A stretch of DNA of 64,000 nucleotides. It comes from Mycteria americana. Lineage: Eukaryota; Chordata; Aves; Ciconiiformes; Ciconiidae. Numbering within the stretch: position 1 is the stretch's first letter; each line of letters starts with the position of its first letter. Shown piece after piece: positions 3,237-61,500 of the stretch. Under the pieces are notes generated by a model. That model ran no database searches. It saw nothing but the letters and a program-made list of their open reading frames with translations, and was not told the origin of the DNA. The stretch is taken from positions 14,034,001 to 14,098,000 of the forward strand of contig NC_134373.1 of assembly GCF_035582795.1 (NCBI RefSeq), given 5' to 3'. Both the position numbers and the translations under genes were made by a program.

Positions 3237-19509
<16,273 letters not shown>

Positions 19510-29584: not shown

Positions 29585-29689
29585 AACATTAACCAGTTCA
29601 TCTGCTGAATATCCAGTGGCATCTGGATTTGAAAGGAGATCCAGCCCTGCAAAAAGACTGAACCATGTTGATACAGCTTCAGTCATATT
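29585..29689 (-). pseudogene. ICA1L: ICA1L last exon, stop codon lost
   Basis: After the acceptor CTAGTTGTTCAG the frame reads NMTEAVSTWFSLFAGLDLL and then SNPDATGYSADELVNV, matching the ICA69-family C-terminus that normally ends ELLNA-stop. Here the bases after the last Asn are GTTTATAG, as if TA had been inserted near a GCTTAG-like stop. The frame continues 62 codons to TAA at 29396-29398 with no family resemblance. Confidence 0.85.
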
Positions 29690-30136
29690 CTGAACAACTA
29701 GAAAAAAGATAGGATGAAGTAATGTTTTTGTTAAATCTAATAAGACCTTTTTAGAGAATAAAATATTTAAATTGACCTCAGGATATTCCTGTAGGCAAAC
29801 AAGTAATAACTGAAGTATTTTCTTGTCTCTCAACAAACCGGAAATGCTGGCCTAACTTGAATTGATTGGTACATGCAATGAAGTGGGAGATTAAGGTGCT
29901 TCACACGTTGAATGCAACTTGAAGTATGTTACAGATCATCTGGAATTAAGGACTTACTGAAGTAGAAACTGTTGGTGTTTCTTACCAAAAAAGTATTTCA
30001 TAATCCAATATAGAACACAGTCTGCTTAAACCCTTTTCTCCCTCCCTCAGCCTGAGTTCCATAACGTGAGACTGAGTACAGCCAGTGTCAAATACTGTGG
30101 TAAGAGTGTTTATGTTACTTTTTTCTCTTCTCTTAC

Positions 30137-30277
30137 CGGCACGTTTTCTGGCACTAGTGGAACTTAGAGTATGTAAAGTATAGAACAAATTCTCTCCCTG
30201 TGCCAAGAGTGTAGTACTGCTGTCTAACATTGTAGCATCTAGTGCTTTCACTTGGAAGCGCAAAATGTGGTTGACCT
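30137..30277 (-). pseudogene. ICA1L: Probable ICA1L penultimate coding exon, strongly diverged
   Basis: A clear acceptor CTCTCTTTCAG and donor GTAAGA bound 141 bases. One open frame contains HILRF, then LLAQGENLFYTLHTLSSTSARK, which fits the order HSSRF ... WVSQEESEL ... of the ICA1L C-terminal region. In that frame the exon ends with one leftover base, whereas the next exon needs phase 0; splicing them would create an early stop. Confidence 0.5.
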
Positions 30278-30410
30278 CTGAAAGAGAGAAAAATGGATTT
30301 GTGGTAACTTCTCAAGTATAGTGGGAGCCTAAAAGGACAGTAGCACTAAAGGTCACATGTTGGTTTATTTTTCCATTGGAAATTCAGATGTTATCACTTT
30401 TGCTGATAAC

Positions 30411-30446
30411 TTTTTGAGAAGTAATGAGTTTTTGAGAAGTAATGAA
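30411..30446. repeat. 18-bp tandem duplication
   Basis: Two copies of TTTTTGAGAAGTAATGA side by side, in the ICA1L locus just upstream of the 30137-30277 exon. Confidence 0.85.
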
Positions 30447-33400
30447 TTGGAGATCAACTACAAGCTTAAGATGCTATAAAATATGAGCTATGAGATCCAA
30501 GACACAGGCTATGCTGTGGTGACTCAATTATAAATTAGCAGTTATTCCAGTTATTTGGATTTTGTCTTTCCTTTGAGCAGTTTAAGGAAATAATGCCCAA
30601 GTAGATATTATTAACTGCATCAATATTATCCTTTTCTGATTTTTGTGTAGTGCTGGACACTACATATTTCACGTTTAAAAACATGTGCTACAAGACCTAC
30701 AATTATTGTAAGAATTAGAGATGGTTCTTTTTATTTTTGCTTTTGGCTGAAGTACTGATACAGATTTAAAGAACACTAGATCTGTATTTGCGTGCAAGAA
30801 AATCTCACCTAAATTTTAAAAGGAATTTTTTTAGTACATTTCCTGGAACGTCTACAAGAATTCAGTTTATTCAATCCAAGCCTATTTCTGACTCTTATTT
30901 TCTTTTACAATAACAGTCTAGAAAAAGCAACCCGGACAAAGTATTTCAAAATGTTTGTTTGAAGAGTGTGCATTCAAATTACAAAATTCTGAATCCAACA
31001 CATTTTTGAAAAGTGTTTGAAAAGATGCAGTCCTGTTCCTGGAGAAGAGGGTGGTCCACACATAGTTATTTCCTGTTTGCATTAGTCAGTAGTGGAACTG
31101 AGGATGCTGAGGGTGCAGAGAGGTCCATGCCTCTGTCCCATGCGATGCCTGTGTCTCAGGTTATATGGGGACTGAAGAGCTTTCCCCATCTGCAGCAACT
31201 CAATTTACCTCTAAATATTTTGACCTTCCTCTCAGCATGCACTTACGGTCTGAATGGTGCAAGTATTGCTGTGCCGTATCGTGATTGCTTGGTAATGTAG
31301 ATTTGTCCCTAATAACACTACAATAATTTTAGACCAAATCATTTTGCTATGAGAGTCTTGCTGTTGTTTTCAGTGAAAGTAAGACCCAGTCTTTGTCACA
31401 GAAAATAGTTGTGGACCTATGATATTTTGCAGATATTTAATCCTGATATTTTCAGCGCTGCAAAGATAGGAAGCCAGAGGAACTGGCTATGCTTTCTGAT
31501 CGTGTAATTGACTCCTGAGATGGCTGCCTACCTTGAAGACTTAAAAATGTATTTTCACTTTGCTGGATGATCTCTCCAATACGGGATGAATCAGAACTTA
31601 CTACGGGATCCAGATTCCCGGAGTGTTATTAGGATATTTTGAGAATTGACTACTTGTCCTATTCTTTCAATTTTCTGGTTGCTAATACATAACAGAATTT
31701 TACTTGTCTTCCTTTAGTTCTCTAGTTGTCTTCTCTCCTGCAAAACTTAACAATGCGTAAAGTAGGACAGTGGGATGTAATGTCTTTATGTGTAAACTTG
31801 TTCAGATAACTGTAGTATAACCTAGTTTCAGGAAGAAAAATTAATTTCTGTAAGTAATGAAGTTTTCATTTGGTTGTTACTGGATTTCAGATGGCATTTC
31901 TTAAATGAGTGCATGTTCTCATTTGAAAGTCCAGGGTCTTGAGAAATCTTTTCATGCTTTAGAGTAACTAATTCTGCAAGTGGCATAGAACTAGCTTGTT
32001 GGCCACTATACAGAGGACAGAGCAAAGTTTTTGCTCTCTGTAGCTGTATTTGGACATTTTACGCCATAGTTGGTTTGATTCATCCTAACATTGGGTGTGT
32101 CTGTAAGGCATTAGCCAGCTGTTCCTCTCTTTTGCAGAAGGTTATCACGCATATGCCTCTGACTGGGAAGCATTTGAAAATGTATGCTAGCATCTTGGGC
32201 TGTGCAACTCATGGTCTGCCAGGTTGAAACACTCCCTCCTCCTCCTCTTGCAGCACTTTGTGTGGAAAATGTTAATGATGTTAATGTGTTTCAGTACACA
32301 ACAGCTGGGTTTTTCGAACCATCTGGGCTACAGGTGAGGAGTAATGATTTTTATGATACTTCTTGTTGCTGTCTACATTAACCCTAGGGTATTTATTAAG
32401 GTTGATCTCATGGAAAAGCGGCTCCATCTACCCTCTCTTCTGAAGAACAGTAATAGGAAGTGTCAAAAAGTACTTTTGAATACAGGTGTTAAAGGCATTT
32501 TTTGTTTCTTGAATTTTCTTACCTTTTTCTGGGCTTAAAAGCTGAGAACATCAGGCTTGCTTATCTGCATGTTGTTTCTTCATTGAACTTCTGTCTTCTG
32601 AACTTCTGGAATAACTCCAGAAACAAAATTAGGCCTGAGCTGAAGAAACACTGCCAAAGAGCTGAAAATTAAAGCCAGCAGGCCAGAAGAAATTCCCAAA
32701 CAAATGTGTATGCATGGGGTGGGTCAGTCCCATCATTACTTGTTAAAGAAATAATTATATAAAAGTTAGATGACAAAGTATTTGCAGTAGTATTGTTTAA
32801 AGGTTACATCATTCTTGCAAAAATTGGGCGTTATATTTTGGAAAGTTCCTTTAAAAAGGACAACGAGAGATTTGACTTTGAGTCTCCATTGTTTGTAATA
32901 TCCTCTTTCAGCATGAAAATATTTTCCGTTCCCATCAGTTTTGTCGGTTTTTTTATTTGGCAAACATGAATATTTTTCCTGAACTTTAAGTAGAATGAAA
33001 AAACATTATTTTTGTTGGCTTGCAGATATTGTAGCTTCCCCTCCAGTAAGACTGGCAGATTTATTTTTAGAGATGTTGTACCAATATATATCTTACACAG
33101 TTATTTAGTGAAAGCAGATTAGACAAGCCTACAGAAAAGGTTTCGTTTAGGGCTTGCTTGCAAGATTTGAGAGTGAGCTATATGTGACAGAGAATATAGT
33201 TCTCTGTGAATATGCAGTAGGTTTTACTCCATGGTTACACAGCTATCTGCTTAGTGCTCTTGGCTGTCTCCATCTCCCTCTGATCCAGCTCCAAAGGGAC
33301 TACTTCTGACATTCCAAACTGCTGAGCAGCTTTCTGACAGCTGCCATTGAGATCGGAATAAAAACAAAACTGTTTTCTTTGCCTTCCTCCCAAGTGTGGA

Positions 33401-35686
33401 TCAGGTGAAAACAGAGCCAATTTCTCGTGTGTGCCAGCTCTACCCCACTGCTCCATCGCTGCTGTTGGGGTGGTCACCTCTGATGTGCAGCTGTCCCCTT
33501 AAGAAGACAACCAAAGACTGAGAGCTGGAGTTGCACTTTGAGAGAGGAGAAACAATAAATCACTGGCTTTGCACTTCTAAGGCCTGGAGACATGAGCCGT
33601 TGTGTATGGAGGGAACTGCCTGGCATTTCTGGTGAGGTGGTCCAAGATACACAGCAATCATTCTTTACCATTTCACCATGGTGCTGGACCTTAACCTGTA
33701 GTATTCAGGCCTGTAGAAAAACTATCTTAGGTGCCTTTCAAGTGTTTAATAACTTAAGTTTTAACTTTCCTGTTCCTGGTAACTAAGTTAACCTAAAAGA
33801 TTAAGCACAATTAATCTTAAGAAAAGATTAATTTAATGTTTTCTAAAAAAATTTAAAGAAAATACATTATAATAAATCTGCTGCTCCTTTGTCTTCATGG
33901 GTATTTCCATCCATTTGGTCTACATTCTAATAGATACAACAATCTGGGTACACCTTCTGCAAAGATCTCATTTGACTGTAGCTTCTCTGTCCTCTGCCTG
34001 CTTCAGCGGCTTGGCCCGCAGTAGCCTGAAGGATTTCGTAGTATAGAGGACCTGATGCTGCTCTCTACTCGGCCTCACTAGCGTGCAAACAGCTTGCTCC
34101 ATGGAGGAGCTCTTTGCATCAAAAAGTTGCAGATCTGAGCTGTGTGGATATGTAGCTGATCACATGTGATAGCATTTCTTTCTTTGCTAATCTGCTGTAC
34201 TGTATGAGGAAGAAATTCACTCTGAAAGCAAGTTCCTTCCTATGCGGTTGGATGGGTCCAGGCACAAGGGAACTAGGAGGGTTCAGGTAGCTAGTGATGT
34301 GCATGATGGGGATGAATTGACACCGCTCAGTGTACTTCTGGCATGCCTTTGTCTGTTACGGTGACTATGTTAATTGCTGAGATAAGTCAAGTTTCTTGAA
34401 AGAAAATTGCTATGCATTCATGTGTCCTACCTATTCCAGTTTCTGTTGTGACAGAACTTTCTTTAATGAGGTTAACCTGAACAGAGTAAGAACGAATTGA
34501 ACAGAGTGCTCGTGATGCAGGTTGTGTTCAAATCTTAGTGATCTGCCTGCTGTACAGACAAGGAGAGCCTACATCTCCCTCGTGCTGATTTTGTATTTGG
34601 TCAACCCTAGCTACTTCAGTGGAAACCCCTCTGACTTTGTGCTGACGTCAGGGAAAGGAGGTCACTACTATGAAGGTATGTAACTTTTTTTTTTTTAAAT
34701 TCGGTAGATATAAATTAATGAACATGTCATAATTTACGCACGTGACATAATACTACCAGAAACGCTGAAATTTAAAACTGTTGTAATGTGAAAGAAAAGA
34801 TACTTATACTATTATAAGTAAGGTGAAAAAGAAGAAAAATGAGAGACTGCAAGCTGAAGGAAAAGATTAGAAATTTGCAAATAGTCTTTTTTTAGTTGGT
34901 TTTTTGGTTGGTGGTTGTTGGGGTTTTTTTTGTGGTGGTTTTTTTTAAGAATTCTGGGAAGCAGATACTTCCTTCCTAATAAAACATGTAGAGAATGTTT
35001 ATGATTCTTCTGGACTCCAGCTTATTTTTTGTGCTTACTTATTGATATTTCTGGAAATGTCATCTTTCTTCTCTCCGCATTCTTCAGTGGGATTGTTTAA
35101 GGGAGACTCCTGTAATGGCTAGGACAAAAAAAATCTTTCTTAAGAAAGAAAGAACACATTGACCTATTGTTCCATCTCTCCGATTTATTCGTTTATACAG
35201 TGCAAAATGTGTAATGATGTTCTCTCAAGTATCTGCTTGTAAAAATAGTTTCAATAATGTGTTTAGAAACTCTTACGGAAATTCTGGTTACACTTCATAA
35301 CACTGGGACTGTTTATATTTCCTCAGGAAGATGATGATATGCCAAAATTTTGGTCACACTTAACAAGAAGATTCCATTTCTAAGTTACAATGCTGTATAG
35401 CCGTTTACTAATTTAATCCGATTTTTTAAAATTCTATAAAAATACTTTTATAGATGGAATTTTAATATACAATATGGCCAAAGAGCTTTAAAAGGGGAAA
35501 AAGTGAAGGAGGAGGAGGAGGAGAAATGTTTCATACTTCAATATAGATTGGCAAATGAGCATGGGGAGTGACCTTGAATGTGCTGAATGCATTTCAGCTG
35601 TTTAATTCTAGATTAAATGATCATTTTCCTGTTCTGAAACTTTGCATCTGTAGGAAAGCCATTGTCTTAGTATGAAAGAAATTTAC

Positions 35687-35781
35687 CTCCTGTGCAACAG
35701 AATTATATGGATGGAAGTCCACAGGCTGTTCAAGGACTTTGGACATGAGCTGAGCTATTTTGCAGAAACGCAGAAAGGTTA
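35687..35781 (-). pseudogene. ICA1L: ICA1L AH-domain exon, diverged
   Basis: Ninety-five bases between an acceptor CTCCCTTAG and a good donor GTAAAT. In the homologous frame it reads TFLRFCKIAQLMSKV and then DFHPYNSVA, aligning with LLGFWKKTARMMSQI and GFHPYDFVA of ICA1L. The family Trp is replaced by Cys and a codon is missing. The frame is open, but divergence is higher than in the flanking genes. Confidence 0.65.
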
Positions 35782-36149
35782 CTAAGGGAGTTAATTGAAC
35801 TAAGGGAGGGAAAGAAGTCATTGAACAAATTTAAAGCTGGGTGCTATTTGTGTCGTTGTTTAACTGTCTGGTTCTACAATATGTGGATCTCAAACAATTG
35901 GCTTCCTATTCAATTCACTTTTTTAAAAAAAGTATACGAGATATCTCAAGCTTGAAAAACACAATCCAATCTTACAGCCATTTCTTCATAAAGCTTCATA
36001 TATTCTAAAACTGGAAGACTCACTACTGAGCACGCAGTTCTCCTGTCCAGATACTTGCACGTGTGATTTTTGGACAGAAGGATAATTGGAAGATTCAAGG
36101 GTAAATGAGCACAGAATCTTTTACTTGCTTAGAGGAAGACAAGGAATTA

Positions 36150-36425
36150 GGACTCAGCCTTTCCTTAGGACGAGAGGAAATGGCCTCAAGTTGTGTCAGG
36201 AGAGGTTTAGATTGGATATTAGGAAAAATTTCTTTACTGGAAGGGTGGTCAAGCATTGGAATAGGCTGCCCAGAGGGGTGGTGGAGTCACCATCCCTGGA
36301 GGAGTTCAAAAAACGTGTAGATGTGGCACTTAGGGACATGGTTTAGTAGGCGTGGAGGTGTTGGGTTGACGGTTGGACTAGATGATCTTAGAGGTCTTTT
36401 CCAACCTTAATGATTCTATGATTAT
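36150..36425 (+). mobile_element. CR1 LINE, 5'-truncated 3' end
   Basis: The sequence has TAGGACGAGAGGAAATGGCC, GGCTGCCCAGAGGGGTGGTG, GAGTCACCATCCCTGGAGG, GTTGACGGTTGGACTAGATG and GAGGTCTTTTCCAACC, ending ATTCTATGATTATTT. This is the typical 3' end of a common avian CR1 subfamily with the octamer tail. It is well preserved, so younger than the copy at 15050. It lies antisense within the ICA1L locus. The short frames here are remnants of the CR1 3' region. Confidence 0.9.
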
Positions 36426-39239
36426 TTCTTTCCAGAAGGCTTTGCAGATGACATGTCTTTGCCTCCACTTAAATCATGGTGAACTTGTTGGCAACCAGTA
36501 CTTTGTCTAGTGTAGACAGTACTTGTCTGGATGAGTGAACGTTTACTTTTTGGAATTCCCCATTTTGCTTGCAGTTGTCCTGGGATTCATCTTTCATCCA
36601 CAGCAATGCTCCTCTCTATTCCATGCAGGCTTGTTCCAGAGAGTATCAGATACTGTATTTTTATGGCTGAATGTTGGTAGTTTCTGCCCAAGGCGAGGTG
36701 GGCCAATCAGAAGGTAAAAGAAGAAAAAAGAGTAAAATACACAAGAGCGCAAGTGAGCAGAATGTTTTGGGGAAACATGGGAGAAGTAGACTTACTGTAA
36801 TTACAGCATAGTTACAATTAAGACTTCAGCCTTCATGTTTATCAGCATTCACACACAGGCTGCCCCTTATTGCCTTCTTACTGCATGGCAAGAATAATAA
36901 TAAATGCTGAGCTAAAAGATGGCACATAAAGTTGATTTTCTTCCATTCTATGCCCCAAAGCATAAAACTACCAGAGATGCCTGTTCCATAAATGCAACCC
37001 TGTATTTACAGCAATAACAGGAACCTGTTTGCGTGCTCATGGCCAACAGTGCATCCAAACACTGCAAACGCCCGACTTAGGCAATGCCCATTTTCTCTCT
37101 GCCTTCCATGTCAAGAAGCAGAGCAAACCTCTGGGATCATGAAGGGTAAGTACATGCAGTATTTATTGAAATTCCCAGCATTCTGAATGTAAACAGAATT
37201 AAAATGCCATACTCCTACACTCCTGCCAACTCTCAGTAGACAAGTGGGTGAAGGATCTGGTTTTGACAGCAAGGTGTGTGTCTGTCTACTCAGCAGTAGC
37301 GTTGAACTCACCTTCAATCTGTTGACTGAAAATGTCCGGTAATAGCTTGAGTGTCTAACAACAGCTATTGCTTATTGTTGCCCGGGCGCTTTAACAGTAA
37401 GATCCCTCCGACAGAATTGCGTAGGGCTTTGCAAAGTGTTAGCGTATCAGGCTGAAGTTTTGGATTTGGTATGTCTCTGTGGATGGGCCTATATTAATAT
37501 TCGGTCTGAGGTGGTTGTGTAGCCCAATCTGAACAGGAGAATGATGTGTGGGAAAGAAATAGAGCAGGTACACGGCTTGAACTGTCTTGAATGGTAGGGA
37601 AGAAAGAGGTGTGTAGAGCTCCCTTTTATCGCCAGATCATCAACACCTGCTAGCTTGTACTTCGCGTACATCAGAGTTTAGGAAAGTGGTTTTCTCTTCA
37701 GGTATAAAATGGCTTTTACTTTTGACACATGTCCCTCCAAATACCTCTGCACCATATACATGCACGCTCTCTGAACCATACCTTCAATTGAATTAACAGC
37801 AGTGCATTGAACTGAGTGAATGGGGACTATTTAAAAAAAAAAAAGTTGAAAACCTTTGCTGTGCAGAAGAAAGGAGAATCCTTCCCTTGACATCTGTCCT
37901 TTTTCCAGCCTCACTTGCATTCTGCTCTGCCTGAAACATTAATGAAGAGCCCTAGCTTATTTTCGTCCTCAGATACGGCTATAAAAAGAAGTAATTGAAA
38001 AATAAAATGTGTGGCAATTCCCATTTATTGACTGTTTTTATCATGAGTACTCTGGGGGTGGCAGAACAAGCACATTGTTCAAACTGATAAGATGCGTAAA
38101 AAACCCCTTCAGGTTTTGACAACATTTGCCGTTGGATGTGGTGTACGTGGGGTTGAGGGGGAATTAATTAAAAAAACAGTCACTAATGTCCATGTCAGAC
38201 TTCATGTGGAACAATGGTGAAGTGATGGGCGTTGGGAAGGAAAAAAATGCAAAGGGATATATAGGCACGCTATAAAGGAAGATGAATGTGAATATTTTAC
38301 TGTATTATTAAATCTGGTACTTTTTGCTGGTTTTCTACGTAAATGTCTTTAATTGAACTCTGGGGCTTAAGAAGGCATTCCTAGCAATGTAATGTTTCCA
38401 AGAATTTTAAAAAGGGAAATTTTTCTATTATTTTTCTTGAGACTTATGGAAGCTTAGAAAAAATTATAATATCTGTGTGATATATATTAAAAATTCCCTA
38501 AATAACAAAAAAAGGCAAAAAGTTGAAAATAAATGGGGGAGCGTGTGTATATTTTTTTTTTATATATCCATGAACATTTTGAAAGAAATCTGAATATTTA
38601 ATACTTTTGAAATGCTCATTATGAACAGGAGACAGCATTTTGAAAGGCTATGCAGTTGTAATGTAATTCTAAATATTAATTTCCAAACCATTTCCCATAA
38701 ATGTTCTTAACATATCTGTAAAATACTGATTTTACTATCCCAAGGTGTTTTTTGTTTTTGTTCTGGTTTGGGTTTTTTTTGTTGGTTTTGTTTGTTTGGT
38801 TGGTTTTTTTGAGGATCAAGGGGTAAAGGTGCAAGGGAGGGGGAACTTTTCCATAAACTTTCCACCTTAGTAGTCCTGTTACGCTGTGTTATTTATAATG
38901 AATAGCACACTTGCAATTACATACTATTATGCCAGCATTAAATTTGTAATTGGAAAGACATAAAATCCTTTTTAATCCATAATTTTTTTTTGTATAAGGC
39001 ACCCTTAAAGTTTTCAAGGGTTATAAAGTTCTTCCTTCATTACAATTATAGCTTCAGTATTAGGCCCTGCAAAGTCTAGTTAGGTTAAATATTTAACAAA
39101 GGACTTTGTTTTCTTCTATTTGTGAAAATGCAGCATTAATGTATTTTTTCATGAAATCTCAAACCTAATCTCTCAGTGGTCAATCCGAAGCAGTGATTGC
39201 CTCCACAAATGTTTTAATGTATCCCAATGTTATAGGCTA

Positions 39240-39283
39240 TATAAATATATATATATATTAAAAAAAATATATAGAGAGAGATA
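39240..39283. repeat. TA-rich microsatellite
   Basis: An ATATAT stretch with A-run and AGAGAGAG segment, within the ICA1L locus. Confidence 0.85.
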
Positions 39284-40609
39284 ATATATCCCTAATGTTA
39301 CAGATACAGTATTTATTTAAATAATAAGAATGCTAAAAAGAAGGACAAAAGGAAGAAGAGCCTCAAACTAGAATAAACTTCTCACTGCATATGGTACCAT
39401 AAAAGTCCCTATGAGTATTCCTCAGTATTCGTCTAGTTAGTAGTAGATATTTGTGTAGGCCATCTGAATGGAACAAGAAAAACCCTTCAGAAAGAAATGT
39501 TGACGCATTATTTTGTAGACAGAATAAGTTAAACTATAACATTAAATTATATAAGCATCTAAATAAACAATATGAATTTAAATTTATAAAATTTAATATA
39601 TAACAGCATTCTTTTAGCTCAGAGCAATCAAGCTTCCTAGCAACAAAAAGAAAAGAAACTGCAAGTCAAGTTGAAAAAAATTCTTTTTTAGAGGTCATCG
39701 GGGCGTTTCTGTTGAGAAGGTCTTGTTTCAATACGGCGTTTCACTGGGCAGCAGTGCAATACAGGCAGAATCACATTCAAAGACTGAACCAGATTTCAAC
39801 TTGACATAAGCAGATGACATTTCTGTTTGAAACAAGAGTTGAACCTGACTGCTGACAAGTGCTGAGTGTATACTTGTAGACAACTTACGAAATATAATCA
39901 AGACAAAAGTCACACACACAAAAAAGAGTGGTGGTTCAAGCTATTTGTGCCTTTCATCGAAAGTAATTAGGACCACAGACACGGAGGGAGGGTTAGCTTC
40001 TGGAGAATGGGTGGTGGCTTAAGCGACAGGGGTGCAGACATCTGACTGTGCTTGTAGACCATGGGTTCTTCACAGAGCCCTGCTGTTCGTGTAGGAGAGG
40101 TGTTAGCAACCAGGGCTGCTGCTTATCACTTGAGCATCAGCGGTGCTTCCTTTCCACTTACCCCCTGTTCTTCAGGTTCTCAGTAATTCTTCTAAAGGTG
40201 GGGGAAAAACTTAACAATAGGGACATTTGCAGACTAAATGTAAATAACAAAAAGGTGTGTCAAAGGCAAATGCTGCCTGCCGTAATGGCCACAGTGTCAT
40301 AATGAAGTCAGTAATGTATGTGGGAAGAGAAATTCAGTGGCAATGCATTAGGCACCCGGAGTGTCTCCTGTATCGGAACATGTTAGCCTAAAGGTCAAAA
40401 CCTCATGTATTTAAAAGGAGGGAGACTTTTACCTCCTTGATCTTGATACTCCTATGAGGAATAAGAAACGAGATACTTCCCTTATAAAACACGGAGTGGG
40501 TGGCAAAATAAGGAGAGTAAATGGCAAGAAGATAACTACTGCAGAGGGAAATAAAAAAGCTTCTCTTTCTCTCTAACTTTTTACAGCAGCAGCCCTACAA
40601 ACTGCTGTG

Positions 40610-40780
40610 CCATAAATTGTAGAAGGGAATTAGAGAAGGCCAGTAGGAAATGGTGAAAGCAATGCTTGAGCCAGCTAAGCAAAATGATTAGCTTCAAATG
40701 TGTCTGCCAAGATATGAGATACAATTCAGACATCCCAAAACTGAAAGTATTTTTCAGTTGCTGCACTATACTGCGGCAAG
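40610..40780 (-). pseudogene. ICA1L: Weak ICA1L exon relic (AH-domain region)
   Basis: After an acceptor-like TCTTTTCTCAG, the - strand frame reads QQLKNTFSFGMSEL and, 20 residues on, LLSWLKH. In the intact family the same order is QEVATFSQRAVSDTL and then, about 24 residues later, ALLWMKD. Spacing and anchors agree but identity is low and no donor is evident, so this may be an advanced relic or a coincidence. Confidence 0.35.
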
Positions 40781-42851
40781 CTGAGAAAAGATTAGAAAAA
40801 GAGGTTTCTTTCATTAAAACAGCCTTCTCTGGTACACAGTCTAATATTATTATTCTCAAGAATGATCTGGTCAGCTAAAATTTTGTATCTCAATCTTCTG
40901 TGTACATCTAGCAAGCAATACTATAGATACTGCAGAGATTCACAATGGTGCATGGTGAGACGATGCACGGGTTGTAAACTGTTCTCCTTGCAAAAATGAT
41001 GGCTTCTTTTTAACGTGACACTCTGGACTTGTACATTTAAATGGCAGCAGACTAGAGGCTGGTAAAACTGAAATAGGGAAACTGTAGTCTCTTCATCTTC
41101 TCATCTTTGGTGAGTTCATGCTGGATTCTGTGGTGCCAGTATCTCAGGCAGCATTTTTCATATGAAACATCTGTTGTTTTGACTCCTCTGTTTAAAAAGA
41201 TTGGATTAGAAGGGGAGAAAAACCATCATCTCCTCCCCCTCACCATTCTGCTCCAAAGCTTAGTTACTATGAAGACAAATCTTATTTATTTCCTTCCAGA
41301 AAAGGCTTTGCTGACATGCGGTATTTGATTTTTTGGAAACTGGTTCTGACTCGGTTTTCAGCTACATCAAGATACAAGATCTAATTATTTTAAATTACGT
41401 TCAGATAGGCTGCATGTAAGCTCCTCTGTAAATCTATATTAAGTCCATCGATTTTGATAGGCTTCGCTGTCTTAACTGACATGCTCTGGAATTACAGCAG
41501 GGTAACTGAAACCAGAATCTGCTTAAATCTGTGCAGTTTAGATGTAGGAAACATTTTGTTTAGTGTTTTAACTGCAGGAGATAACTACTGGCTATAGTGC
41601 AGTCTTCTGAAAAGCAACACAGACTATCTGCTGAGGGTCTCTGTACGCTCTTAAATGTAAAGGCAAAACCGTATTATTATTTAATTTATTAATCTTTTAA
41701 ATGCTATGGATATATTAAGAGGACCACTTGCATGTTGATGCAAGATGGAAGAAAGATCTATTGTGTAACACCAAGAACTATACTTGATCCCTGCTCCGAG
41801 TATTAAAAACCTGCTGCCAGCAAATTCCAACACCTCATCCTATGCACAAAGTCCACCAAAATAACGAACTACCCATCCAAGATCTGCTGAAAGATAAGAT
41901 CTCTCATCTGATATTGAGAGTGGAAGAGTCAAAGATCACTGTGATCTTACAAGCACACAAACAGATTCTGGTCCCTGATGGAACTTGGTGAAATTCTGTC
42001 AGATTTTGACTTTTTTTTTAAAATTTTTTTCTAAACATCAAAAAGAGTGCCCAAATTTGTATGAATCTTCCAAGATTCAGGCTAACGTTGATGCAAAACC
42101 TGAGAGGGAAAGGATGGGAGAGAAATGGAAATTTGTGCTTTTTAAATTGGAAAACAAATTACTATATTTACTTTAACAGGGGACATTAGAAAACAGATGT
42201 TTGTTATGACTCCAAACCACATATCGTATGAACAACTCTTCCTGCTAATGCACACCCATGCCACACCTTCCAGACTTTTGTTCAAAATACACGCTTTCAG
42301 CACATGCCTCTGGGTCTCCGCATCCACTGTTCGATCAGTAATGTGCCTTCAGGCTTCAAAAAACTCAAACGAGGGATTTATGTCACCCAGTAGCCATCAA
42401 TGCTGCAAGTATTCTAAAAAAGGAGAGGGTAGCTTATTTGTCGTTGCCATCCTCCTGATCCCCAAAGAAGCCCTATATGACAGAAAGAATTCTCCATCTG
42501 GCTGGCAGACTGGTAACACTTTGGTTAATGCAGTAAGCTCAAAACTGCTAAGCTTTTCCACCAAACGTTAACTGTATGCGGGGATGTGTGCACAGACATG
42601 GTAATGACACCATTTAGAGTGGAGAATAATTTAAGAAAGTCCTCCTCTTTGATGCTGGATAGATTCAGAAAACAATAATGCAATTCCAACACTAGATACC
42701 ATATTTTGGGCTTCTCAAATGACACAAATGACTGAGACCGCCCTGTTGAAAGTAAGTAGTACTTGTTAGTGGCAGGAAAAATGATGCCATTTGCATGTAC
42801 TCATAGTCTATAACAATTCATACTGACACTGCTTACGATCCTTAGGTTTAT

Positions 42852-43049
42852 CTCTAATTTGGCATCCAGCTCTGCATCAGATGTTACCACATATTCATCT
42901 TCGTTCTTTGGTGAGCTTGTTTCAATTTCCAATATTTCTTCTGCATTTTGTCGACCATTGGGCAGTCTTTTGACCTGTCTTGTGTGTGGAAATCCATGAG
43001 ATCGCTGTGTGTGCATGCGTGTGTAACAAACTCGAATGTTTTTCAACAA
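42852..43049 (-). pseudogene. ICA1L: ICA1L start exon with frameshift
   Basis: Read on the - strand, the acceptor TATATCCCAG precedes a short 5' UTR and ATG at 42997. The first 27 residues (MDFHTQDRSKDC, then MQKKYWKLKQ) match the ICA1L start. The frame then breaks and ends at TAA 42884-42886. The other frame resumes the family sequence NEDEYVVTSDAELDAKLE. ATG to the final GAG is 146 bases, not a multiple of three. The base pair after GAG is AT where a GT donor is expected. Confidence 0.85.
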
Positions 43050-44309: not shown

Positions 44310-45175
44310 TAAACAAACAAGGAAACAAAAAGATGCAATAAAACAAATAACAGCATTAAATGAAGCAGGGTGACAATCCATAAACTGTATTCACCCCTGG
44401 ACTGGGGCACGTGAGGGCCAGCTTGGCAGCCCCATTCTGACAGAGAGTAGAAATCCAAGTCAAGTGTGTTGACCTAGTTTACATTAAGTATTTAATCTGA
44501 CAAAACCTTTTGCCTTTCCCACAGCAGGGGAAAAGAGCACGTGCTGAAATTTCAGTGAGGTCATGGAACAGATCTGCCCAAATCTGATCCGCCACTTTTT
44601 TTTTTTTAATATGTTTAGAATCACATTATCTTGGAAATAACATTGTAGCCTCCATTAATTCAGTGATGAGAAAAACATTAAAAATTCTGAAATTCTGAAA
44701 CTTATATCTATGTTTAAGTAACAAGTTGATAATTAACAAGACTTAGATCAACTTAGGAGTGTAAGAAAAGTGTATATTTTTCCTTTGGGGAATCTCTGCA
44801 TATGCCTAGCTAGCACTTTCTGTTGCAGAAATGGCACAGAAAATGCAGGAGAAAACCTTGTGTCTCAGTTTTCATTAAAAGTGCATTCCTTGTTCTACGT
44901 AAGTATTTCCTTCCAGCTTTGTGAAATATTTTTGAATTGTAGAAGTCACTTTAAGCATATGTAGTTAGATCCATTTCCTAACATTTGTGTGCTGAAATCT
45001 AGGGAAGTATGTTGAGTTTATACTGGAAATCTATCAGCCTATACAAAAGTCATTTAAACTGCATGGAAGTTTATTTTCATTAACGAAAAGCCTCACGGCC
45101 AGCCTATGGGCTGTATGTTGAAAGGAATAGGCAGAGTGGCACTGGCTGGAGATCTGCATCCTTGCCCCAAACTCT

Positions 45176-45440
45176 TTAGAAGTGCAGCCTAAGAAACCCA
45201 CGGTCTCCCACCAGCCTGTCCTCTCCTCTCGCCCGTGCCTCCAGGGCGTACGGTGCCCTCCTCAGCAGCTCACGCCCAGAGAAGAGGGTCCAGCGGCAAA
45301 GCGTTTGCCTGGGAGCAGGTATCCGAGGTGCGTTTGGGGGTCCCAAAGCCGTGACCGGCACGCGGGTAGAGGCTGCCGTCCGCGCTGCTGCGGGTGAGCT
45401 GACATGCCCTGCCCTGGTGGGGGTCTGCACGGTTTATGGA
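45176..45440. promoter_or_regulatory. Small orphan CpG-rich patch, possible former ICA1L promoter
   Basis: By eye about 18-25 CpG in 265 bases, with a GC content much above its surroundings. It lies about 2.2 kb upstream of the ICA1L start exon, the position expected for that gene's promoter. No clear donor or TSS motif was seen. Confidence 0.4.
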
Positions 45441-48400
45441 GAAGGTGGTGGTACCATGGTGAATGGCAGTACCACACGTGCTGTTAGGTTGTGTGTCGCT
45501 TTCACTGGAACACTTACAGTTTCCTTCCCTATCCCTTTGTTTTTACTTCAGTCTCCTAGTTGAGGGAAGGCCTAGAAATTAAAGATTAAAAAACTAAACA
45601 AAGTGCCAACAAGAGAGAAAAAACAGTGCTCTGCCAGGGCTGGCTATAGGAACGTGACGGCAATCATCCAGAAGCAAAGATGAAAGTCTCAAAGCAAGAA
45701 GGAAGCTGAAAGAACCAGCTGGGAAAAAGCAAACACATGAACAGAAAACGCAAATGTGACACTAAACCAAGGACCAAGCAGGTGAACCCTTGCCTTAAAC
45801 TAACGCTTTTGACATGTGTCTTAATGCATGATGTTGTTTGAACTGTATCTAGAGGCAGTGTATGTGCACCAGTAAAGGCAACAGCTTATGCCAGGTGTCG
45901 GTACAGAATGAAAAGATCAAATAGAACAATTTATTGCACAACCTCTCAACAACAAGCCCACCCCCCATCCCACTGATATAAAAAAATGAGTAAAGCTTGT
46001 AGTAGTTGACTATTGTCTTTATTCCCCTCACTTGTAGTATCACTTCAATGTTTAAGGAAAACTAGCTGTTAGTACATAAAAATTCTTTACTGTTCTATAT
46101 TATGCAATCAGGGCACTACGAATATGCAGAAATGTTTTTTTGGGGAAAACAAAAAGTATTTTTGTGAGTAGAATCACCATCAGCACCTTGATTCTGGAAG
46201 ACTAAGTTTGTTTTTGACTCAGTTCTTTTGCAATTTTAAAATCAACTCATGCTGGCCATTCTAATTTCACATCATTATTTTAAATGAAAGAACTGCATGT
46301 TTGGAGGAAAACAAATATTCTTATTAAAATGTTTTAATTAAGATTACGGATTATCCAAATCCAGCCAAATCTAAAAAGTATTTTTGTAGGTTCTAGGATA
46401 ACTTATAGACAGTGGTAATACAGATGCATTCCAAAAAGATGTTGGACTTACGCTGGTATCACTCCATAATGTTAATATGGTTTACTTAGTTGCTTCTTTC
46501 TGGGTCTGACGCAGTACTTTTCCAAATGAGAGAACACAAAGTGAGAGGAGGGTGTAAAAACCCTCCTGCTTCTGAACTGTGGTCTACCAAAACCTACCTT
46601 TCTAGGTACACTCTCTGTATTTACTACAGGTGCAAATGTAGTAGAGATCTAACGGATTCAGTGTTTGAAACTGAAACAACTAATGCCAGCTGTGATTTCT
46701 TAAGTCTAAATAATATTAATCTTTCTAAGCTAAGCTGACAGTCCAAGTGATATGACCTTTTCAAAAAGTATTTTTTAAATCTTTCTGGGAAGGCAAGAAA
46801 ACCGTATTAAGGTTACCTATCTTGCATTCATGAGTCTTTAAACATATGCATATAAGAGAACCCACTTATTTTTATCAACTACTTAATTGGCTGGAGGTGC
46901 TCTACAGCTATCTGACTGTAAAATACCACAGTAATTCTAAAAGCTATGCTCAAGCATAATTTATCTGAAAGAAAAACTGAAGAGAGTAATAAAATGGATG
47001 TTTCTTATAATAAGCAAAATAGTTCAAGACTTCAGATTAAATGGTCGCTGGGATTCTTGAAGAGAAATGAAGCAAACTAGTTTCCAAACTTACTTCACTG
47101 TCTTGCTTGCCACTGAAAACATCTCCAAACTTTACTTGGTTAAGACCTCCAAAAGTCAGGTATACTGGATTAAGGACTACCTAAAAAGGATATTACCCTC
47201 TTCTGTTTTCATACTGAAAAATTATTAGAGATTTTCTAAACTTTTATGAATATTAGGCCAACGATTGCCAGAATAGACTGGCATATCCACAAATGTGCAT
47301 GTGAAATTATACAAATCTGCGACAGTGGGGAGGAAGAAATGCTGCATGTTCCAGCACATACTAAACTCCTGCTCAAAAAATGCTTTGTATTTTTGGTAGG
47401 TTTACAAAACAAAATAGTTATTCACACCATATTTGCAAGTTCCAGATAGACAGAAGGCAATGTTTTAAAGGAATAAAGTTTAAATAAGAAAAAAATATAA
47501 TTAGTTGCTGTATTAGGGCATGAATAGTGTATGTTGCTTTAGAAAAGATGAAACACATACTAAGAACATGCACATGGATAAGATGACAGCAAGACAACTA
47601 ATTCCTTGTAAGCAGCATTTGTAAATAAAGGTTTTTTATTTACAGAGCGAAGGGATCAGAGATCCTTCCCCTGCACCCTGGCCCTTTTCTCCATAGTTTT
47701 GCTGTTTGGTGTTTCCTAAACTGCTTACTCAGAACTTGACCATATTGTAAACCTGGAGGTCAGAGATTTCACTCTTCAAAGAAAAATTACTAACCTTCAA
47801 TTTAAGCATTTGACTTGATTGTGCTGTACAGGTCTTACATTTATTGAAAGCTAAGACATTAGTGAGGATATTCAAGTTTGGTTTCCACATTGTTAAACTA
47901 TGTGCTGCTGGTTTACCATCACGTATATGGCATTTAACAAACTGCAGTAATAGCTTTTTCATTTAAATGCTGAATTAAAAGCAAGACCACCAGCAGAGAA
48001 AATGAGCATGTTTGGATAGTACTTACCCTTTATCAACCTAAAAGCTATTGTAACTTTTTATATCCATTCTTTCCAGGAACAAATTAATTTTTCTTCTGCC
48101 TTCTCTGTGTGATCCTCCACTTGTTTCTATAAATCTGCTGCTTTTTAGGGGTTAAGATACCACATTATAAGAATGCGCCTGCCTTGTGTTGCAGTACAAC
48201 TAAAGTAATTCACAGCCCTAACTTATGAGTAACAGAAAAATGGAATAAATAATGGAGTAAATCTAAAAAAAATGGATAATGGAGTAAATCTGTCAAGTTC
48301 CTTTACGTCATACCATTTCACTACAAACATACTAAGTCTCCATCCTAGAAAGAAGCCAGGGTTCATCACTTAAGGACCTAATCGTAAGAACTGCCAACAG

Positions 48401-48851: not shown

Positions 48852-57786
<8,935 letters not shown>

Positions 57787-57790
57787 GCTG

Positions 57791-57811
57791 CCGCCGCCGC
57801 CGCCGCCGCCG
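57791..57811 (-). repeat. CCG/CGG trinucleotide run in WDR12 5' UTR
   Basis: Seven uninterrupted CCG units on +, read as GGC in the WDR12 mRNA, a few bases before the start codon. Confidence 0.85.
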
Positions 57812-57825
57812 GCCTCGCCCCCGAC

Positions 57826-57831
57826 CACGTG
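57826..57831. promoter_or_regulatory. Canonical E-box CACGTG upstream of WDR12
   Basis: A perfect palindromic CACGTG lies 40 bases upstream of the WDR12 ATG. This is the preferred MYC/MAX and USF site; WDR12 and its PeBoW partners are reported MYC-responsive in mammals. Binding here is inferred. Confidence 0.6.
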
Positions 57832-57989
57832 CCGCGATTAGCCGCGATTAGCCGCGCCCGCCGCCTCCCCGCCCGCCGCCGCGCTCCGGCCCCGCCGAAG
57901 CCTCTTCCCGCGGCCGCGCTGGGCCGCGCCGCGCGCTGACCACCCCCGAGCCCGCTGCGCCACGCGGCCGGCGGCGCGTTGCCGCGGAG

Positions 57990-58013
57990 ACCACAACGCC
58001 CAGCATGCCGCGC
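57990..58013 (+). promoter_or_regulatory. ZNF143/THAP11-type motif 1
   Basis: The stretch ACCACAACGCCCAGCATGCC closely resembles the vertebrate promoter motif ACTACAATTCCCAGCATGC, known to bind ZNF143 and the THAP11/HCFC1 complex and common in divergent promoters. It lies in the gap between WDR12 and CARF. Confidence 0.65.
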
Positions 58014-58028
58014 GCGCCCCGGCCCGCG

Positions 58029-58054
58029 AGCTACGGCTCCCGAGAAGCCCCGCG
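58029..58054 (+). promoter_or_regulatory. ZNF143/THAP11-type motif 2 (weaker)
   Basis: GCTACGGCTCCCGAGAAGCC is a second, more diverged version of the ACTACAnnTCCCAGAAGGC form, about 40 bases after motif 1 in the same orientation. Confidence 0.45.
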
Positions 58055-58099
58055 CCACCGACTTCCCGGCGCCCTCCGCGCGCCCCTCTCCTCCTTCCC

Positions 58100-58573
58100 C
58101 TCCCTCCCGGCTCGAGGGCGGGTGCGGCGGCGCGCGTGCGCCGAGGGGCGGTCTGCATGGCGGCGCCTGCGGGAGCTGAGGCGAGGTGGAGTAGACCCCT
58201 TCGGGACCCCCCGCCGCTCCCCGCGGGGCTGGCGGCGGCCGTGCCGCCACGGGCCGGGCCGGGCTCTTCCCCCGGGGCGGCGGGCGGGGCCCGCGCTTGT
58301 GTGTCCCACTCTCCCCGCCCCGGGGCTGTGGTGCGGAGGGGTGCGACCGGGGGAGCCGCGGGGCGCAGGCTGAGGGGCAGGGGATGAGGTGCGCCCGTTC
58401 CCCTCCCGGCTGGGGCGTGGGGGGCGCTTTCCGTGGGGCACTCGCAGGCCCTTGCGCCGCTGGAGCGGGGCCCCGTGCCTCCCCCGCACCCGGGGGCCGC
58501 CTTGCTGCACCCCCGGCCGGGCCGGGCCGGGTGGTGCGGGGCAGCCCGCGGTACCGGCCTTGCCCCCGTGGCG
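58100..58573 (+). other. CARF: Putative CARF non-coding first exon region
   Basis: A strong donor (GCG|GTGAGT at 58574) terminates GC-rich sequence on the CARF side of the divergent promoter. The 5' boundary is a guess; an ATGGCGGC element like YY1 sites lies at 58157-58164. It would splice to 63021. Confidence 0.4.
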
Positions 58574-61500
58574 GTGAGTAGCTCCCCGTGTGGGGCTGCG
58601 GCGTTGCTGGAGCCGGCGAGCTGGCGTCTGGGACTGTTGGCTGCTGGTGGTGTCTTCTTGGTGTAACTTGGGTTGTGTTTCTTTGCATGTAAAGTGACAC
58701 ATCGACAATAAACTTCCTACTAAAAGTAATAAACCCAACATGCAGTGGACTCTAAAAGAAGCTGTAAGTGAATTTGCTCTTTTGGGAGAAAGCTGCTTGT
58801 GTGAGTACCTGCTGTGTGCTTGGTTTATATATCTTTTTTCCTGCCTTTCTGACAGTTACTTGTGGCCTCTCGAGGAACAGTTGAGCTTTCCCTATGTGGT
58901 GACTCAGGTTAGGGCAACTTGTTGGAGCAGGCAGGTGTTGAGTCTTGATGTTTTGTGAGGCTCTGAAGTCTCATCTATTTCTTAAGTGTACTTAAAAGAT
59001 CTAACAGTGTTTGTCAATGTAATTGACACAGGTGTATTTTCCAGATAGCTTGTGCTGGCTACACGGAAGTGATTTGCTTGAGAAACCTTTTAAGTAGGAG
59101 TCCCCAGATGATCTGTGCATTCTTAACACTATCTGCCTGCTCTTCCATGACAGAGAGAAGCTGAATCTCAAACCTCGTACAAGTTAATATAAAGCTAATT
59201 GTAACTCATTTACTTGAGGGTATCACTATGCCCTAATTTCCTCCCTGTTATGTTTTACTGTAATTTGTTCCCTTCGTAATGGTGGTAGACAAATGTCATC
59301 AGAGGTAGCTTTTTCAGAGAGAGCGTTTAATTGTTGTAAGCTATGCAATTATCTTAAATCTTCTTGTAAAACCTCTGAAACATTTCATAGGAAGCCCAAA
59401 AAAGGTTGTTGGTGAGGCATTCAACTGTATGTATTTCCTGTCAAGAAGTATAAATTAAAACCTGAATGGGGAATATTGCTATCAGAAGTGCTGAAAACAT
59501 GAACTTGCACAGTCAAGCTTTGATTTACTTTTTTTTTTAATGGGTATGCATTGAAGACTTGAAGCTTGAAAAACATAAGAGAATTCCCTCCTTCCTTGCC
59601 CGACAGAATACTCCTAGCTAGAACGTGCTTATTATCACAATGGACCTGTTTTTTACCTGTTTTTTACAGTTTAGGTTTCTTCTCATGACTAAAATCTTGC
59701 AATATTGACTCAGTGTTAAAGTAATTGGCTCTGGGATTTTGAAAGGCAGTACTTCCCTTTGGGATCTGGCTGTGTGTTGCCTTCACAAGGAGGCCTCGTA
59801 ACTGAGGGAGGGCAGAAGCAAGCATTCATATGAGGCCTTAAAATTATGTCAGGCTAGAACTGGTGTATTCTTAGGGACCACTGCTTGTAGTTGATAAGTA
59901 TAGGTATTACGGTAGAATAAAGAATCGGAGGCCAGAAAATACAGAAATCTAATACTCTGCCTTAAGGCAGGGCAGAGATGTGACTGGTCAACAACAGGAT
60001 TTTAAAGTAATGCTAGTTTGACTTTTCTATTAGTGTCTTTAAAAGTTTACGTATTAAGAATCAGTATGTGGGTTTCTGGGTTAGAGAGGAGATTGCAACT
60101 GTTATAAGAAAGGTTCACCTCAGAGTGGGCATTGAAATCCTGTTCCTGTTGAGAGTACCTGATGTTATATAGGTTGTGTCTGTGGATGACAATCAGTGAG
60201 AACCTAGCGTTGCAAGAGGTTGCCACTGGCTTTGACAGCTGTGTTATCACAGGAGTTCTTGAAGGCTAAATAAATCAAGATCTGACTGCCTTTTGTGTTT
60301 TGCTAAATGATCTTGAACTATCAGTGCATTTGTCTTTGGAATTGAACCACTGATGGTAACGTGTAGGCTAGATTGCAGTGCATGATTTTTGCTCTCTTGA
60401 AGATCCTGTCTGTAAGACCCTGCATAAAATGCTCATGATGGTTGTCGTGTTTGCCTGTGCTAGCAGTTTCTGTGGCTGCTTGCTCTCCTTGTAGAATTGA
60501 ACCAGGGACAGCAATGGCCATAGATTTCCCTTTATTTTGAGCAGAGTGCTTCCCAAATGGAGTCAGGGCGAAGGAAGCAGTCCTGTGGCGTTAAAATGTG
60601 CTAACCCTTGAGTTGGAAATGGCCTTGGAGTGGTGGACTTCACAGAGAGCAGCCTGTAGAGTGGTCTGGGTGGAGCTGCATTAAGGCTAAAGCTGAGGCA
60701 TGGAGACCTGCCTGTTTGATGTGTGCAGTGACGATGCAGCTGTTGATACCGTTTTACACTAACATTAAACTCCCACATTTCTCCTTCAACCCGTTGTTAA
60801 ATGGGGGATATAGTGGTGTTACATTGGAAACTTTTGTGGCACTTATGTAAAGTCTTTATGAAAAGAAGAGATACTTGTATGTTATTTACTCATCCATGAG
60901 TACATATTCATACGTATATATGTATACAGGATTTAACTGTCTTGTTTGGGGAATTTGTTAGCAATATTTATACAACTATAAAATTTCTTAACTATGTATG
61001 TACTTGTAAGTATCTGTAAAAGTATATTTCTTTAAGACAAAAAAAAATCTTTTTTGTTTGGGCTTGCACAGCACTTAGATTAATGAAACCTGGATGGTTA
61101 AACCATGAAGTTCATTGTCTGGGGTAATGTGCATGTCAGTGGTTTGCCTGGGTTAGAACAGTGATTAGACAAAGTCACAGGGCAAAAATGTACCAAGGGC
61201 ATTTTTTAAACACAAAGATAAAACTTCAGCTATTTCTGGGCTGCTTATAAGAGGAAGCTGGATAAATATCACTGTATATTTACCCTACTGCTGTCATTTT
61301 TTCCCTGAGCTTTATTATTAACCAGTGTTAGATACAGGGTATTGGGCTACTGGCGCTGGTGGTCCGTCCCAATATAGCTGTCCTTGTGTTCTGTAGTTCG
61401 GTTCCAGCACGCTCAGGGTACGTGCCATTGTTATCTCTGGAACAAACTTCTTCAGTTTATCTCAAAGAACTAAACATGCTGCTTTGGCAAAACTGACATA

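Follow-up and report, generated by a model that had tools for sequence, protein, structure and literature searches.

Background

In mammals ICA1L combines an Arfaptin/BAR domain with an ICA69 C-terminal domain. Human ICA1L has been linked to stroke. A paper on stroke names ICA1L 24 times (PMC9022281). In mice the gene is required for building the sperm acrosome; the mouse protein binds PICK1 via its BAR domain, and sperm of Ica1l knock-outs have features of globozoospermia (He et al. 2015, cited in PMC5260884; see also PMC11398861).

Unitary pseudogenization is a known mode of gene loss. For birds, vertebrate genes that were lost while their neighbours were kept have been reported (Lovell et al. 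2014, PMC4290089). Judging by titles and abstracts, these earlier sets of bird losses were argued from missing syntenic clusters and have been disputed as hidden GC-rich genes, whereas at the locus described here the decayed exons are legible. Since they can be read in ordinary sequence (G+C content of the window 0.389), an explanation by genes hidden through their GC content does not apply to ICA1L. This is thus a bird gene loss with its remains still in place, which cannot be attributed to sequences escaping assembly. No description of a loss of ICA1L in birds was found in the literature searched; genome annotation databases may already show it.

The ICA1L remnant of Mycteria americana resembles mammalian ICA1L in exon order, strand, position and in the residues of six segments. 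It differs from mammalian ICA1L in that disruptions affect at least three exons, two of the BAR exons are undetectable and the stop codon is lost. Within the same genome the 2R sister gene ICA1 has the same exon plan and also adjoins a gene of the FAM117 family. The human ICA1L, ICA1, WDR12 and PICK1 sequences used as references were approximate, and single residues in them may be wrong.

Genomic position and neighbouring genes

We analyzed a continuous stretch of 64,000 nucleotides from M. americana (contig NC_134373.1), here referred to as the window. The ICA1L remnant sits between FAM117B and WDR12. We take the order FAM117B-ICA1L-WDR12 to be that of the human genome as well.

WDR12 (48855..57666, minus strand) served as neighbour and control. 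Residues 13-423 were recovered and the first residues were not located. A total of 352 of 414 aligned residues were identical to the human reference and no stop was found. This sum covers 13 of 14 pieces, which overlap by about 12 residues; the piece with residues 1-16 scored 17 and was left out. The single frameshift scored by the aligner was rejected, as it represents an exon border inside a query piece. The FAM117B exons (3278..19323, plus strand) form the tail-to-tail neighbour and gave seven matches to the Pfam family FAM117, two of which were flagged with a stop. These flags were taken as overrun into introns. Both neighbours had been described as looking intact in the preliminary description, and this agrees with our results: WDR12 showed neither a stop nor a real frameshift in the 13 pieces, and FAM117B covered profile positions 1-309 of 310.

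An eroded CpG island lies at 45001..45700 (minus strand), with a G+C content of 0.52-0.61 and an observed/expected CpG ratio of 0.57-0.64 in 400-base bins. We infer that it is probably the former promoter or non-coding first exon of ICA1L. A strong CpG island was also seen at the start of WDR12 (window positions 57000-58900, CpG ratio up to 1.24). It is presumably a two-way promoter common to WDR12 and CARF, the latter being assumed to lie beyond WDR12 from the human gene order; Pfam found no family on the plus strand of 58.7-64 kb. Between WDR12 exons a perfect 32-base tandem repeat of 2.8 copies is present (52366-52453), the unit of which is partly self-complementary.

The start exon

The start exon, here named exon A (42852..42997, minus strand), corresponds to the N-terminus of the BAR domain. 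It carries a deletion of about 13 nt, a frameshift and a TAA codon, and its donor is lost. The frame from the ATG (42997-42995) reads MDFHTQDRSKDCPMVDKMQKKYWKLKQAHQRTKMNMW and ends after 37 residues with TAA at 42886-42884. The segment NEDEYVVTSDAELDAKLE (42905-42852) follows after KLKQ and lies in a frame other than that of the ATG. The gap from KQ to EDEH comprises 14 nt, compared with nine codons (27 nt) in both human references, ICA1L and ICA1, as well as in the ICA1 gene of the same genome, and the exon is therefore 13 nt short. In total, exon A is 146 nt long versus 162 nt in the human ICA1L reference, a deficit of 13 nt plus one codon, so that no placement of the gap restores the frame.

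These observations bear out three statements of the preliminary description. It had placed an ICA1L-like start and the TSDAELDAKLE segment in different frames of a 146-base exon, which can be read directly and whose two halves are both found by tblastn; it had estimated about 13 missing bases between KLKQ and the NEDE segment, in line with the spacing of 14 versus 27 nt; and it had located the stop at 42884-42886, where the TAA was found after 37 residues.

Both halves of exon A were matched by the human ICA1L reference (tblastn against the 64 kb window, E 7e-7). The human ICA1 reference matched both halves slightly better (tblastn, E 2.8e-8). With Pfam the first half gave no family and the second half gave Arfaptin at E 0.019, which falls short of the cut-off. 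The codon pattern for DAELDAKLE occurred once in the window and in none of 100 shuffles. In collections of microbial and viral sequences the pattern was found in 77 stretches titled bacteria or archaea and in 10 untitled stretches of the viral collection; these were taken as chance matches.

At the donor position of exon A (42851-42850) AT is found, giving GAG/ATAAAC as compared to GAG/GTTTGT after DAKLE in the own-genome ICA1. A donor-like GTAAGC site is present on the minus strand at 42836-42835, 15 bases beyond the lost donor. It could act as a cryptic donor, which would leave the upstream frameshift of exon A in place.

Remaining exons of the ICA1L remnant

Further ICA1L segments, corresponding to exons C, D, E, F and G, were located below exon A on the minus strand and in protein order by tblastn and a frameshift-tolerant aligner. 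Together with exon A they form six collinear segments on one strand. The aligner scores for exons A, C, D and G were 108-124, while the opposite strand reached at most 52 there. Exons E and F were weaker, with scores of 63 and 66, respectively, in one alignment and of 59 and 68 in another; in the latter none of 40 shuffles reached these values. The borders of exons C to G were set by eye against the exon borders of the own-genome ICA1.

Exon C (37854..37978, minus strand) carries a +1 frameshift, with 10 nt at 37943-37934 where 9 are expected. Its acceptor AG and donor GT (GTTTTC) are kept. A YQLRLN-like match upstream of exon C was rejected as a pyrimidine tract.

Exon D (36547..36707, minus strand) carries several lesions, their sizes and the borders being set by eye. 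The acceptor at 36709-36708 is changed to TG (TG/ATTGGC versus AG/ATTAGC in the own-genome ICA1), 16 nt are deleted near 36638, a TAG at 36618-36616 replaces the Tyr of TEYRGALLWMKD, and four further codons (12 nt) are gone. The donor GT is kept. At the start of exon D an additional deletion is possible by eye; it was excluded from the lesion count.

Exon E (35687..35781, minus strand, borders by eye) has kept its acceptor AG and donor GT. A frame lesion scored here at first was withdrawn, since with the borders of the own-genome ICA1 the exon is open and one codon is missing. Exon F (31452..31613, minus strand) belongs to the linker and shows weak similarity over 52 residues, 20 of them identical (score 68 versus at most 48 in 40 shuffles). 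It contains a TGA at 31454-31452, where the reading of ICA1 and ICA1L continues.

Exon G (29588..29697, minus strand) carries the ICA69 C-terminal motif, which was detected by Pfam with an E-value of 5.7e-9, and its acceptor is kept. The motif is recognizable but altered: the D and P of LFADLDPLSNPDA, residues common to ICA1 and ICA1L, are changed. The stop codon is lost as well, and the frame continues to 29396, beyond the end of the human reference and that of the own-genome ICA1.

Two exons of the BAR domain were not found. In 37990-42850 the two queries for exon B were matched in score by 55 and 39 of 60 shuffles, and in 35800-36545 the two for exon D2 were matched by 19 and 11 of 60. Pfam Arfaptin was absent from the three minus-strand frames of 28.0-38.0 kb. 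The Arfaptin/BAR domain is thus interrupted by the frameshifts in exons A, C and D and by the TAG in exon D, with exons B and D2 not found. Within the interval between exons D and E, where D2 is expected, an element at approximately 36165..36425 is present that we take to be a CR1-like retroposon by its resemblance, with a 3'-end-like motif at 36411. Human ICA1L residues ~262-345 and the part of the linker following exon F gave matches that did not exceed those of shuffles. Nothing is concluded from them because these parts evolve fast.

Overall, 150 of 277 residues in exons A, C, D, E, F and G were identical to the human ICA1L reference, with five scored frameshifts and one stop. Exon B is excluded from this tally, and three of the five frameshifts were kept after review. 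The two others, located after 36540, were dropped: they lie past the donor of exon D, where the match to D2 is no better than that of shuffles.

Orthology and search for further copies

Three exons allow the two paralogues to be told apart in favour of ICA1L. With tblastn, exon C gave E 6e-7 against the ICA1L reference versus 0.20 against ICA1, and exon D gave 2.5e-6 versus 0.002. With human ICA1L, exon E scored 59 in 29700-36545, which none of 40 shuffles reached; with the own-genome ICA1 it scored 25 in 35600-35830, which 22 of 60 shuffles reached. Judged by these similarities, the remnant appears closer to ICA1L than to ICA1, exon A pointing slightly in the opposite direction.

The whole genome (1.348 Gb in 279 contigs) was scanned with Pfam profiles. 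ICA69 gave four matches (all five candidates scored), which were found only at ICA1 on contig C2 and at exon G of the window. Arfaptin gave 15 matches at four loci (all 16 candidates scored), namely ICA1, PICK1 and two others, which are probably ARFIP1 and ARFIP2. No second intact ICA1L was found by these genome-wide ICA69 and Arfaptin scans of the 279-contig assembly. The Arfaptin scan (E up to 1) speaks to intact copies only, because the decayed BAR exons of the window itself were missed by it; other decayed copies could be missed likewise. A 601-base region around the start exon had a single match in the genome, which was itself.

The own-genome ICA1 is located at C2:29.42-29.48 Mb and was recovered in 11 tblastn rows, among which the ATG exon could not be located and exons 8-9 matched only weakly. 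PICK1 is present as well, with residues 116-372 of the human reference found by tblastn in seven pieces, five of them at 92-100% identity and two running into introns. On C2 a FAM117-family gene, presumably GLCCI1, lies tail-to-tail with ICA1 (29.37-29.48 Mb). Because this arrangement mirrors that of FAM117B and ICA1L, we regard the two as 2R duplicates and the ICA1L locus as being in its original place. The block on C2 and the window apparently represent an ohnologue block whose ICA1L member has died.

Loss of constraint

As a measure of constraint we used 148 positions in exons A, C, D, E and G which are identical in the human ICA1 and ICA1L references, aligned by hand. The own-genome ICA1 retained 146 of these 148 residues in the five exons and, unlike the remnant, had no stop inside its exon borders as read; the stop flags in its Pfam and tblastn matches lie outside these borders according to our reading. 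The remnant kept 89 of 135 residues (those alignable among the 146 kept in ICA1), a comparison in which the control is a paralogue and possibly more constrained than a living ICA1L. Retention per exon was 21/28 in A, 16/27 in C, 27/39 in D, 8/17 in E and 17/24 in G. The open exons E and G were not spared, their residue loss being about the same as in the broken exons. Taken over the five exons, these counts point to relaxed constraint along the ICA1L remnant.

Interpretation of the locus

The locus is, with high confidence, the orthologous, intron-bearing ICA1L at its ancestral position, flanked by FAM117B and WDR12; the gene has become a unitary pseudogene and has drifted for a long time. The preliminary description had proposed from the start exon that ICA1L was lost in this lineage. 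The proposal can now be extended to the whole gene: lesions are present in several exons, exons B and D2 were not found in their intervals, no second intact copy was found in the genome, and invariant residues were lost in five of five exons.

A sequencing or assembly error in the start exon of a living gene would account for the first lesion, and we consider it extremely improbable. An error at 42900-42920 alone cannot rescue ICA1L, because lesions, missing exons and residue loss extend along the gene: exons C, D, F and G have separate lesions, B and D2 are undetectable, and all five exons tested have lost invariant residues. WDR12 on the same contig is also free of such errors in the pieces counted. 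Nor does it seem at all likely that the remnant is a duplicated or retroposed copy with the working gene elsewhere. Such a gene might have escaped if the assembly is incomplete. However, the locus has introns and occupies the slot between FAM117B and WDR12 that is mirrored beside ICA1 on C2, and the scans which detected the exons of ICA1 and PICK1 showed no other intact copy, the start-exon region matching itself alone.

A further explanation, which is compatible with a unitary pseudogene, is that the locus is dead as a BAR protein gene while a truncated transcript, begun at the former promoter or further downstream, still yields either a C-terminal protein with the ICA69 motif or a non-coding RNA that has a function. 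The frames of E and G are open and their splice signals kept, and a residual CpG island is present at 45.0-45.7 kb. As far as the frame alone goes, a short 3' product may be compatible with the locus, since no frameshift occurs in E, in G or in the part of F before the TGA, and a number of splice signals survive. We nevertheless regard a surviving product as unlikely, though less so than the two former explanations. Exon E with 8 of 17 and exon G with 17 of 24 invariant residues show a loss like that of the broken exons, the ICA69 motif is altered, its stop codon is lost and exon F contains the TGA.

For the unitary pseudogene, the course of events would be the natural loss of one of two 2R duplicates, after which full-length ICA1L protein would no longer be made. 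ICA1 probably takes the role of the ICA-type BAR partner of PICK1 in the traffic of Golgi-derived vesicles, including proacrosomal ones. Alternatively, PICK1 alone may serve, or the role of ICA1L may matter only in other lineages. Another protein may therefore do the job of ICA1L in M. americana, or the job may not be needed. A lineage without ICA1L but with ICA1 and PICK1 would be a natural knock-out, which could show which roles of ICA1L are dispensable.

Age of the loss

Assuming a retention of 90-100% of the invariant residues in a living gene, the remnant has accumulated approximately 0.14-0.19 substitutions per non-synonymous site. For birds, rates at fourfold sites of 1.23-2.21 x 10^-9 per site and year have been given (PMC2911116). 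Dividing the former by the latter results in roughly 60 to 150 million years, a crude value that depends on a small count and a hand-made alignment, while the rate of the lineage itself may differ; it says that the loss is old, not when it happened.

The amount of decay suggests that ICA1L was lost tens of millions of years ago, which is the least certain part of our interpretation, and the loss is for this reason probably common to many bird orders. It likewise argues against a loss private to M. americana. Tentatively, and with somewhat less than even confidence, the loss of ICA1L might date from the stem lineage of birds or from the very beginning of the crown group, in which case, unlike mice, all or most living birds would make acrosomes without ICA1L, relying on ICA1 and PICK1 together or on PICK1 alone.
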